From positions 488,764-552,763 of the forward strand of contig NW_022985076.1 of NCBI RefSeq assembly GCF_010015585.1: a DNA stretch of 64,000 nt, read 5' to 3'. The DNA comes from Eremomyces bilateralis CBS 781.70 (Eukaryota > Ascomycota > Dothideomycetes > Eremomycetales > Eremomycetaceae). Below the pieces are notes generated by a model. That model was not told where the DNA came from, ran no database searches, and was given only the letters and a program-made list of their open reading frames with translations. This document shows, one piece after another, positions 7,539 through 14,349 of the stretch (its first letter is position 1; the number at the start of each line of letters is the position of its first letter). A program made the position numbers and the translations under genes.

Positions 7539-9297
7539 ATGGCATACCTTCCCACCCCCCACCTCCTCCACCTCCAATCCCACGGCTTCATCCGCGGCCA
7601 CCTCCTCACCTCCCCCACCACCCACCGCCCTCTCTGCACCTACTACGGCGGCGTTCCCTACGCCTTGCCTCCCACTGGCGAGTTCCGCTGGCAGGTCCCG
7701 CGCGCGCTGCCGCCGTGCTATGCGTATGGGACGCGGAATGCGCCGGGGGAGTTTACGGAGGGGTGCGGGGTGTGTCCGCAGGTCGGGGGGGAGGGGGAGC
7801 AGGAGCAGGAGGAGGACTGTTTGGGGTGTAATGTGTGGGTGCCAGTGGGGGAGGCGCCGGTGGGTGGTGAGTGATTGCCTACCTACTGCCTACCGATAAC
7901 GGGGGCATTGGAGATAATAGGGGCTAATGCGTTATTGAAGGATGGCCGGTATTGTTCTATATCCGTATGCGAAATTCTTAAGATGTGTTGCTAGAAGGAA
8001 GCTGAATCAAGTAGATGGAGGCTTTCTCCAATTCGGCGACCCCAATTCAGGAGACGTCGTGCCGCTGATATCGGAGACGGAGGTCAAATGTATCATTGTT
8101 AAGCCCGGCTACCGGCTGAATGTCTTCGGGTTTCTGTCTCTCGAGCATGCGCGTCCGGAAGGGTCGAATAGCATCGCCAGCAATTTCGGGCTGTGGGATC
8201 AGCGGATGGCGCTCATGTGGACGTATAAGAATATCAGTTACTTCGGCGGGGATCCGGCGAACATCACGCTGGCGGGATACTCGGCGGGTAGGACATCTCC
8301 GAAAGACGGGATTTTATAAGTTTTCTAACTAGCATCAGGCGCATACTCCGCGTTCCACCAGCTCGCGTACGACCTCTGGCAACCGCAGCAACTTATCCGC
8401 CGCTGCATCATGTGGTCCAACGGCCCCGGCATCCAGCCCAGACCCCCTTCCGAAGGCCATACGCAATTCAACGAGCTGCTGACCGCCCTCCAGATCCCCA
8501 CCACCCTCGACATAGAAACCCAGATCCAGAAACTGCGCGCCGCCTCGCCATCCGCCTTGCTCACCGCCACCCGCGCCATTCAACGCCACCAGTTCCGCCC
8601 CGTCACCGACGGCCGCTTCGTTCGCCGCGAGCTGTTCGCTGACATCGACCGCGGTGAGTTCGCGGCGCGCATGCAACGCCGCAACATCGCCCTGATGATT
8701 GGTGAGTGCGAGCACGAGCGCCACGTCTACGGGACGTACATCCCCCCGGCGAACTCGTACATTGGGCTCCGCGACCGGCTGGAGGTCGACTTCCCCGGGG
8801 TCGCGGACCGGCTGATGGGGTACTATTTCCCCGCGAAGCGGCTCCCCGCGCAGTGGGGGGATTGGCGGGAGGCGTTCGGGGCGGTGTACGCGGACGTGCA
8901 GGTGTATTGTCTGCAGCGGGGGTTGGTGGCGCGGATTGCGCGGACGGCGCCGGGGTTGGTGTGGCGGTATCGGGTGGAGTGGCGGGCGGGGTGCGTGGAG
9001 TTGCCGGTGGAGTGGGGGGCAACGCATACGACGGATTTGGCGATTTGGTTTTGGGGGGAGGGGCGGTTGACGGGGAGGGAGAAGAGGGTGGTGGAGGAGG
9101 GGTTTGTGAGGGGGTTGGCGGCGTTCGTGACGGGGAAGGAGGGGGGGTGGGGAACGCGGACGGAGAGGGAGGTGAGGCGGCTGCGGGCGGATGGGAGGGT
9201 GGAGATTTGGTTGGACGAGGAGTGGGATCGCGGAGTGGAGCTTTGGGAACTGCTGAGGAGCGGCGACGTGGGAACGACGGCGAGAGCAAATCTATGA
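7539..9297 (+). CDS. Type-B carboxylesterase/lipase family protein
   Basis: Alpha/beta-hydrolase of the carboxylesterase family, expected to cleave carboxylic esters. Model: 7539-7866, 7941-7964 (a 24-nt exon), 8015-8287, 8339-9297, giving 527 aa. Family landmarks: YYGGVPYALPP at the N terminus, FYIHGGFLQFGD (oxyanion-hole HGG), the IVKPGYRLNVFGFL strand, FGLWDQRMALMWTYKNI, the nucleophile elbow GYSAG split by the last intron, and a C-terminal ATHTTDLAIWF that probably carries the catalytic His. The acidic triad member may lie in IGECEHE. No clear signal peptide is seen, so a cytosolic enzyme is likely. The second half is very GC-rich with long G runs, like its neighbours. Physiological substrate unknown. 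It converges on iec3. Confidence 0.88.
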
Positions 9298-9585
9298 TTA
9301 GGGTTTGGGTGCTGCCACTGCGAGGAACGTTGCTGGCGAATGCACTATCGAGAGTGCTTGATAATGGAGTGCTGGGTTGACATTAGCTTCGAGCTTCGTC
9401 ACCGACTGAACACGTCCAAAGGGACTTGCTGCTCTCCTGCAGTTGCTCCCAGGCCGCACGTAATGCAAACGCTCCTCGCGGATGGGTATATCGTGATCTC
9501 CACATCTATGCGTCCGAAAGCTCATGAATCCCCCTCCCATCCCAGCCAGGAACTCCATGTAATCGATTCTTCCCATGAGCGCCAC

Positions 9586-10560
9586 TCACTCCTTATGCGC
9601 ACCACTCGCCACCGAGCCCAGCGATGCTCTCGCCTTCTTCTTCCCCCCTCGTTCCGAATCGCCCGCGTCGCGTTTCCGCTTCGACGACTTCCCGCCCTTC
9701 GGCCGATATGGCTCGTCCTCGATGCTCTTCCGCGACCGCTTGGCCGGTGCCTTCTCCTCCAGGACGAACCCGATCTCGTCATCCAGCAGTTCGGGCTTGT
9801 AGGTCGAGGGAAGCGCGTGCGTGAGGCTTCCCCGCTTTCTGCCGATGCCGCGCGTCGATTTCTCGGAGCCGTTTTCGTGCGGTTCTTTGGGGTCTTTGGG
9901 TTCTTTGGAGGGCTTGTCTTGGAGGAATACTTCGGGTTGGTTGCGTCGCAGCCAGTTGATGACGGACATGGGGTTGCGGAGGGCGAGGTCTTTGTCGGTG
10001 AAAGACTTCTTGACGGGGCGACTGGGAGGGGCGTCGGGAGTGGGCGCGTCGGTGGACGGGTCGATTTGGTCGAGGGATGCGAGGAATTCCTCTTCGTGAT
10101 CGATGTCGAGGATGGCGGACGCGTACTCTCCGGGGGATTCCATGCGCGTCCGGATCTCCGATCGACTCAACCCGAATGTCGTGGGATCGGAATCGATGAG
10201 GTTGAGATTGAAGGCTTGTTCGGGGGGGATGAGGTCGCTTTGGTTGACTTCCAGGAGGATCTCTCGGAGTTGGCTTGGACGAGGTCAGCTGTCGATTATC
10301 GATGATATCGCGTCGCATTAGGGGACTCACTCATTCTGTTCTTGCAGACGCTTCGCTAGGCTCAAGGCCTTTTGTTCATCGGTATAGAGCTTGTTGCTGT
10401 CCTCCATCGCGTTCTCGAATCGGATCTTCAGCTTGCGGTATTTCTTCCTATAGAACCGCATTGATATCAGTTATGCAAAGCGACACCGGAGAGATAGATC
10501 CTACCTCCATGATCGTAGTGGTGTCTTCTCCTTGGCTGCGGAATCCAGAGGATGAGCCAT
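9586..10560 (-). CDS. iec3: INO80 chromatin-remodelling complex subunit Iec3
   Basis: Nuclear accessory subunit of the INO80 ATP-dependent nucleosome remodeller. Model (minus strand): 10505-10560, 10331-10447, 9586-10273, giving 286 aa. The N-terminal KYRKLKIRFENAMEDSNKL and the coiled QKALSLAKRLQEQND segment match the Iec3 family, followed by ILLEVNQ, the LIPPEQAFNL motif and SRSEIRTRMESPGEYAS. The C terminus is basic and of low complexity (KSSKRKRD), suggesting nuclear localisation or DNA contact. The intron at 10274-10330 ends in AAG and was chosen over an earlier CAG because only it gives the correct phase. Divergent from ORM1. Confidence 0.82.
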
Positions 10561-12612: not shown

Positions 12613-13404
12613 ATGCCGAAATATAAGTCTCCCCTCCCTTCTCCTCGATCGCTACTAACAACCTGCACTCTTCTGTAGGTGTTCTCCCACGACGGCGACG
12701 CGATATTCTAACCCACGCAGGCGACTACTGCGATGTCTACCTCACCCACGACTCCATGAGCGTCCGCAAAGCCCATAACAGCGGTCGCAACCACCTCCGC
12801 AACGTCGTCGACTACTACAACCGTGCGTCCCTCCCTCCGCCCTTCACCGCCTTGTCGCGATTGCTAACACCTCCGCGCGCAGAAATCGGCCAGGAGCAAG
12901 CCCAAACCGTCATCGACTCCATCACAAACTCCTACGCCGCAGAAGGCCAACAGGCCTCGAATCCCCTCCTCCAAGCCCCCGGCGGCCTCGCCGGTGTCGG
13001 TCCCAGCGCAGGAGGTTTCCCACCACCCTTCTCCTTCCCCGGTATGCTCCCCCCCTCTCTCTATGTTTCCTATCTAACGTCACCCAGGTCACCCAGGTAT
13101 GCCACCCCCTCCCTTCGGAATGCCCCCCGGTCCCGGCGGCTCGCACCCGAACCTCCCGCCGAACCTTCCCTTCCCACCCCCGAACATGCCGCCGGGCGCA
13201 CTACCCTTCCCGCCGCCGTTCCCGCCCAATAGCGCGGGGTCGCCGGGCGCGGGGATGCCGTTCCCGCCGCCGCCGGGCGGGCTGCCGCCGGGGTTCCCGA
13301 TGCCGCCGAATATGGGGATGGGAGGGCCGGGGATGCCGCCGGGGTTTCCGCCGGGGATGATGGGAGGGCAGCAGCAGCAGCAGCAGGGGCCGCCGGGGTC
13401 ATGA
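12613..13404 (+). CDS. YHC1: U1 small nuclear ribonucleoprotein C (U1-C)
   Basis: Splicing factor of the U1 snRNP that helps recognise 5' splice sites. Best model: 12613-12626, 12679-12680, 12721-12822, 12883-13041, 13097-13404, giving 194 aa. The matrin-type zinc finger reads [22 protein letters not shown], with all four ligands (2 Cys, 2 His) present, followed by [15 protein letters not shown] and a Pro/Gly/Met-rich tail ending in a Gln run encoded by CAG repeats. The zinc-ligand Cys at residue 6 is formed only if two introns separated by 2 nt are both removed (see findings). The last intron has two in-frame acceptors (13087 and 13096), predicting forms that differ by 3 residues. It lies tail-to-tail with the next gene. 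Confidence 0.9.
12627..12720 (+). other. Paired introns separated by 2 nt in U1-C
   Basis: Intron A is 12627-12678 (GTCTCC...GCTACTAAC...TAG). Two nucleotides (12679-12680) remain, then intron B is 12681-12720 (GTTCTC...TTCTAACC...CAG, 40 nt). Removing both gives codon 5 (AAG) and codon 6 (TGC). Single-intron alternatives leave the zinc finger out of frame. Confidence 0.65.
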
Positions 13405-13753: not shown

Positions 13754-14349
13754 CTACAACCCCCCCTCCCTCAACTTCTCCCTCACCAACACATTCGCCA
13801 CCGGCGGGCTCGGCCCCTGCTGGACCCCCTGCCGCGCGTAATCCTCCATCGTCAAATTCACCCACAGTACCTCCCCCCGCTGCTCCTCCGACACCGCCGC
13901 CTTCACCTGCGCCACCTCCTCGTCGGGGATCCCGCCGCCAAAGATCACCGCCTTGGGGGTACGCAGCGGCTCGTTGGCGGCGGCGCGGGCGGCGTTAGTG
14001 CCGAGGGTGGATGCGGGGGAAGGGGGGGTAAGGGTGAGGATGAGGGGGATTTCGTGGAGGGCGGTAGGGAGGTCTAGGATGATGTGGACGACTGCGGGGG
14101 ATTAGATTTTGGCGGAGTTGATGGTGGGGAAGGGGTAGTTTTGCGGGTGGGTAGGGACATACCGTCGTATTCTGGAAGTAGCAGCTTTTGAATCGCCGTC
14201 GCGATCTCTGCCCTTCGTCCATACGTGACGACGGGGATTGACTCCATCTTCGGTGCTCCGGTCCGGATAAATCGTCGAGTTAGGGGCTGATGATATCGGA
14301 TCGTGAAACTGCGGGCGGAAAGGTAGCCGGTTTGACGGAGGATGTTCAT
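13754..14349 (-). CDS. Small fungal protein of unknown function
   Basis: Not assigned to a named family. Model (minus): 14163-14349 and 13754-14091, giving 174 aa, with a GT..CAG intron that joins EYD to VVHIILDLP in phase. The body begins IPVVTYGRRAEIATAIQKLL, followed by an alternating hydrophobic segment (HIILDLPTALHEIPL) and a VIFGGGIPDEEV motif, which together suggest a small alpha/beta fold. The first 36 residues are basic and rich in Arg/Ser/Thr with few acids and could be a mitochondrial presequence. Alternatively translation starts at the internal Met before ESIPVV. The C terminus (GPSPPVANVLVREKLREGGL) looks helical. No function is proposed. Confidence 0.65.

Follow-up and report, generated by a model that had tools for sequence, protein, structure and literature searches.

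A candidate U2-type AT-AC intron and a candidate 6-nt microexon among the first codons of U1-C in Eremomyces bilateralis

How are the first codons of the U1-C gene of the fungus Eremomyces bilateralis joined to the rest of its zinc finger? The gene lies at positions 12613–13404 of the forward strand of the stretch of DNA analysed here (64,000 nt; the window). An earlier note, which weighed GT-AG ends only, had excised two introns at 12627–12678 and 12681–12720 with a 2-nt exon between them. The analysis favours another arrangement, with a probability of about 0.9. In it, an AT-AC intron (12623–12668) and a GT-AG intron (12675–12720) would flank the microexon TCTTCT and would be removed independently by the ordinary U2-type spliceosome. 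The case for this AT-AC reading is built on splice signals and on protein conservation, and the two agree.

The identity of the gene, already proposed in the earlier note, was borne out by a match to Pfam zf-U1 (PF06220) over residues 1–38, which scored 77.4 bits (E-value of 6.9e-22) with the protein of the AT-AC reading and 71.1 bits with that of the two-GT-AG version. Of the six solved-structure sequences matched, five belong to U1 snRNP protein C; entry 2vrd, the human protein (PMC3985668), has the N-terminus MPKFYC. The zinc ligands Cys6, Cys9, His24 and His30, numbered as in PMC3985668, can be read off the translation. When the whole genome (26.6 Mb, 62 contigs) was searched at the protein level, U1-C was found at a single locus, with two exon matches.

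The coding part of exon 1 (12613–12622) reads ATG CCG AAA T. The proposed AT-AC intron, 46 nt long and in phase 1, begins with AT at 12623–12624, within the donor ATAAGT, and ends with AC at 12667–12668, within CAC; its branch site TACTAAC (12653–12659) has the branch A at 12658, which leaves 10 nt to the end of the intron. The microexon (12669–12674) would complete Phe4, encode Phe5 and supply the first base of Cys6. The GT-AG intron that follows, also 46 nt long and in phase 1, splits the Cys6 codon as T/GC and has the donor GTAGGT, the acceptor CGCAG and a branch site TTCTAAC (12706–12712) with the branch A at 12711. Both branch-like sequences had been pointed out before and are present. 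Exon 3 (12721–12822) carries the remainder of the U1 zinc finger, as judged from the Pfam match and the translation. Downstream, the gene model places an ordinary GT-AG intron at 12823–12882 (GTGCGT...CAG), exon 4 at 12883–13041, a further ordinary GT-AG intron at 13042–13096 (GTATGC...CAG) and exon 5 at 13097–13404, which encodes a Pro/Gly/Met-rich tail and the stop. The intron at 13042–13096 has two in-frame acceptors, at 13087 and 13096, 9 nt apart within a doubled GTCACCCAG, and the choice between them would give U1-C proteins of 197 and 194 residues, three residues different.

Splice signals were scored with a home-made gene model trained on the window and 200 kb of contig C2 of the same genome (264 kb). 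Training gave 54 predicted genes and 76 introns of median length 58 nt, with G at +5 in 74 of the 76 donors and the branch A at a median of 12 nt from the 3′ end (middle half 10–15 nt, 95th percentile 30 nt). Because the training introns were forced to begin with GT and were partly picked by consensus, the set holds too few of the weak true donors. All parses from the ATG to GAC 12723 were then enumerated, with one or two introns of at least 38 nt and with GT-AG, GC-AG or AT-AC ends. Use of AT-AC ends was charged 12.4 bits for rarity, set from their frequency of 0.019% among annotated fungal introns (PMC7072748). RNA-seq of human fungal pathogens gives far higher figures, 0.09–5.19% of the splice sites used (PMC6176087), and the lower frequency was chosen as the harsher charge on the AT-AC reading.

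Twelve stop-free in-frame parses were found, two of which give MPKxxC. The AT-AC plus GT-AG pair scored 30.6 bits after the rarity charge and yields ATG CCG AAA TTC TTC TGC GAC TAC TGC (MPKFFCDYC); the pair of the earlier note scored 15.1 bits, and its product starts MPKYKCDYC. The frame arithmetic behind the latter is correct: ATG 12613 is present, each segment starts with GT (12627, 12681) and ends with AG (12678, 12720), and excision of both leaves 'GT' and yields MPKYKCDYCDVYL in frame. It is neither the sole nor the best parse. The nearness of two introns within the first U1-C codons also holds, but on this evidence the exon between them would be 6 nt and the first intron AT-AC.

The two parses differ in their donors. 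ATAAGT, with +1 read as G, scored 9.3 and equals or exceeds 54 of the 76 modelled donors, and GTAGGT scored 6.6 (at least as high as 16 of 76) and is used by four of the 76 modelled introns. GTCTCC and GTTCTC, the donors needed by two GT-AG introns, scored −2.9 and −7.8, where the lowest donor of the sample has −1.1, and equal or exceed none of the 76. The earlier note had called only GTTCTC weak; GTCTCC too falls below every modelled intron. The branch site TACTAAC scored 8.8, with 66 of the 76 modelled introns equal or lower; the distance from its branch A to the end of the AT-AC intron is 10 nt, and the first of the two GT-AG introns would need 20 nt.

The protein points the same way. In a zf-U1 probe, FF at positions 4–5 scored 82.0 bits and YK 75.8, with the four Phe/Tyr pairs at 81.8–83.0, so that Lys5 in the two-GT-AG model costs 6.2 bits. 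That model has merits: it is in frame, its acceptors and branch sites are good, and it needs GT-AG ends alone. It nevertheless demands a 2-nt exon, and it is very probably wrong because its donors lie below all 76 introns and its Lys5 fits poorly; we give it only a few chances in a hundred.

Other ways of reaching exon 3 fared worse. No single GT-AG intron of at least 30 nt gives a stop-free in-frame join, in keeping with the earlier statement that single introns are out of frame; that statement fails for a single GC-AG intron (12665–12720), which is in frame, yet adds 12 residues and scored 6.4 bits. The likeness to stwintrons suggested in the earlier note, in which an internal intron is removed first and so creates a splice site of the outer intron, did not survive enumeration. 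Stwintrons have been described in Pezizomycotina (PMC5639578), but ordered excisions with GT-AG, GC-AG and AT-AC ends, nested ones included, gave no MPKxxC parse, so that the defining feature is missing and a nested arrangement here is extremely improbable. With the start held at 12613, the gene score rose from 32.1 to 45.0 once AT-AC ends were permitted. A model with a free start and AT-AC allowed preferred ATG 12756 (51.9 bits) to 12613 (45.0 bits), because every added intron costs 20 bits; without AT-AC it likewise started at 12756.

Pairing with U1 in a fixed register gave seven pairs for ATAAGT, with an unbroken run of five from +2 to +6, and eight for GTAGGT; GTCTCC and GTTCTC form three apiece, which counts against the two-GT-AG model (sample minimum, five). 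ATAAGT has a weak unrestricted duplex energy with U1 (−2.5 kcal/mol; 9 of 76 donors are as weak or weaker). By this measure the donors of the two-GT-AG model, at −2.4 and −3.7 kcal/mol, are no worse, and the near-equality means that unrestricted energy does not separate the two readings. The ATAAGT site is thus plausible in register and weak in duplex energy, which is to be expected of a donor lacking the +1 and −1 pairs. The two U1 snRNA-like genes found both start ATACTTACCT; their E-values are 1.5e-13 and 3.1e-12, and both score under the Rfam cut-off for U1. These genes (L003, 1501–1634, and L004, 1501–1659) lie on different contigs and have diverged, with their first 12 bases identical (ATACTTACCTTG).

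The signals of the AT-AC intron fit the U2 type, with the donor at 9.3 bits (+1 as G) and the branch at 8.8 bits. Introns of the U12 type have ATATCC-like donors and CCTTAAC-like branch sites (PMC3033335); ATAAGT shares three of six bases with ATATCC, and the branch site is TACTAAC. A search for the minor snRNAs U6atac and U12 gave no hit in this one genome and was equally silent in control genomes, so by itself it says nothing about their absence; U6 was found. Rfam models gave no matches at gathering scores over the 64-kb window. According to a survey, convincing minor introns occur in neither Ascomycota nor Basidiomycota (PMC10639083). The U2-type spliceosome is thus the probable agent of removal. 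ATAAGT is the usual donor of U2-type AT-AC introns, whose first A and last C are compatible in the second splicing step. In U1-C, AUAAGU would be read by the U1 snRNP through the five contiguous pairs from +2 to +6 despite the A at +1, and the terminal A and C of the intron would be compatible at the second step, as in that class. Both 46-nt introns would be cut by the ordinary spliceosome with neither removal waiting on the other, to give a transcript joined at 12622/12669 and 12674/12721 with the predicted mRNA ATGCCGAAATTCTTCTGCGAC.

Chance was gauged with 20,000 dinucleotide shuffles of 12623–12720. An MPKxxC parse of any kind arose in 136 of them, and in 10 the parse put a pair of aromatic residues ahead of Cys6; no shuffle scored as high as 15.0 bits, let alone 30.5. 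Over 528 kb of strand, the U1-C intron is the only AT-AC candidate of its quality on donor, acceptor and branch together, and three GT-AG candidates passed the same cut-offs. With loose cut-offs AT-AC candidates are common in the same 528 kb (154 versus 219 GT-AG), so the case is carried by joint signal strength and the protein, not by AT-AC ends alone. An error in the assembly, hiding either a single intron or an ordinary GT-AG intron on each side of the 6-nt exon, deserves a thought given that the evidence is one assembly without reads. However, turning GT-AG into AT-AC would take two separate single-base errors at precisely the first and last intron bases, with the remaining splice signals left intact, and such an error is accordingly rated as improbable as the two-GT-AG model.

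A wider family of such introns was looked for in the genome. A strict AT-AC pattern matched 10 times at nine places (two matches overlap), against 34 matches for a reversed control pattern, and no AT-AC intron entered the gene models of the 10 pattern loci, both strands included, or of the 264 kb. This survey has little power, because the U1-C AT-AC intron is itself skipped when the start is free. None of the five forward matches checked overlaps a GT-only gene. The survey therefore speaks neither for nor against further AT-AC introns. Duplication as the source of the two 46-nt introns found no support, as their alignment score of 20 was reached by 176 of 406 pairs of 29 other introns of 42–54 nt. 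Searches of viral and prokaryote contigs confirmed no relatives.

Both U2-type AT-AC introns and microexons were known before, and the U1-C case would add a member to each kind. Wu and Krainer reportedly named U2-type AT-AC introns in a title of 1997. The U1-C candidate shares with this class its AT-AC ends and U2-like donor and branch, and differs in lying in a fungal gene next to a 6-nt exon and in being known from DNA alone. The class is also named in PMC7072748. Among fungi, 13 AT-AC introns have been reported in Ganoderma lingzhi, with one gene checked by Sanger sequencing, and AT-AC introns are listed for Fusarium graminearum (PMC11590231; PMC3577648). The Ganoderma case is alike in that these are rare AT-AC introns of Dikarya and that overlooking one of them had disrupted a gene model; it differs in that the checked gene is zf-C4pol, and no neighbouring microexon is described in the excerpts of those two papers (PMC11590231; PMC3577648). 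Microexons are internal exons of about 3–30 nt flanked by two introns (PMC11121469), and in the best parse TCTTCT at 12669–12674 fits both the size and the flanking introns. Fungal examples, in Trichoderma Xlr2 and in Schizosaccharomyces pombe, are very short and usually a multiple of three (PMC11121469), whereas the U1-C candidate sits between a non-canonical and a canonical intron. With stwintrons it has in common two U2-type introns within one short stretch of a fungal gene; unlike them, the U1-C introns are not nested and each has its own complete signals. No fungal U1-C AT-AC intron or microexon is reported among the matches listed from the open-licence literature, in titles and abstract openings.

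Retention of the first, second or both introns leaves open frames of 39, 39 and 21 codons, and the products are predicted to be non-functional. In yeast U1-C, Cys6-to-Ala is lethal (PMC3985668), so correct intron removal should be vital here too, if that requirement carries across species. Besides the main form, and compatibly with the AT-AC reading, the microexon might often be skipped by an AT-AG splice (12623–12720), which would give MPKCDYC. As the 6-nt exon is symmetric, skipping keeps the frame and loses Phe4-Phe5; the skipped form, however, leaves the first five profile positions unmatched (68.7 versus 82.0 bits), and AT-AG is described as a poorly spliced intermediate for introns of the U12 type, which belong to another spliceosome (PMC3584512). 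Frequent skipping is unlikely on balance.

If the AT-AC reading is right, a fungus can make a core splicing factor only by removing an intron that is among the rarest in type and borders a 6-nt exon, and this one gene would show how U1 and U1-C deal with a fungal 5′ splice site that lacks G+1. There would be a practical side as well, as gene predictors restricted to GT-AG can lose the U1-C zinc finger; the home-made model with a free start began at 12756, also when AT-AC was allowed.

The earlier note had raised the idea that failed splicing could let U1-C regulate itself. That idea is easier to motivate in altered form, because the AT-AC donor lacks the +1 U1 pair and U1-C reportedly adjusts the affinity for some 5′ splice sites with mismatches (PMC4383343). 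Human U1-C touches the U1/5′-splice-site duplex close to the junction and makes several mismatched sites, +1C and −1C included, better competitors; to a first approximation, the presence or absence of U1-C leaves relative affinities very similar, and +1A is absent from the mismatches reported in the excerpted text of that paper (PMC4383343). A donor without the +1 and −1 pairs might then need U1-C more than other introns do and act as a gauge of U1 snRNP quality, with the level of U1-C setting removal of its own first intron and unspliced transcripts ending after 21 or 39 codons. This gauge is an unlikely proposal and self-regulation of U1-C is speculation; neutral drift from a GT-AG intron is a simpler story. 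Were the loop real, a protein that steadies mismatched 5′ splice sites would be encoded behind such a site.

Two further genes were predicted in the window on the reverse strand. A small one at 13754–14247, convergent with U1-C, encodes 140 residues with no Pfam match at an E-value of 0.001. The other, at 8335–10461, matches Pfam Ino80_Iec3 (INO80 complex Iec3) with 85.4 bits and has an Iec3-like middle region.
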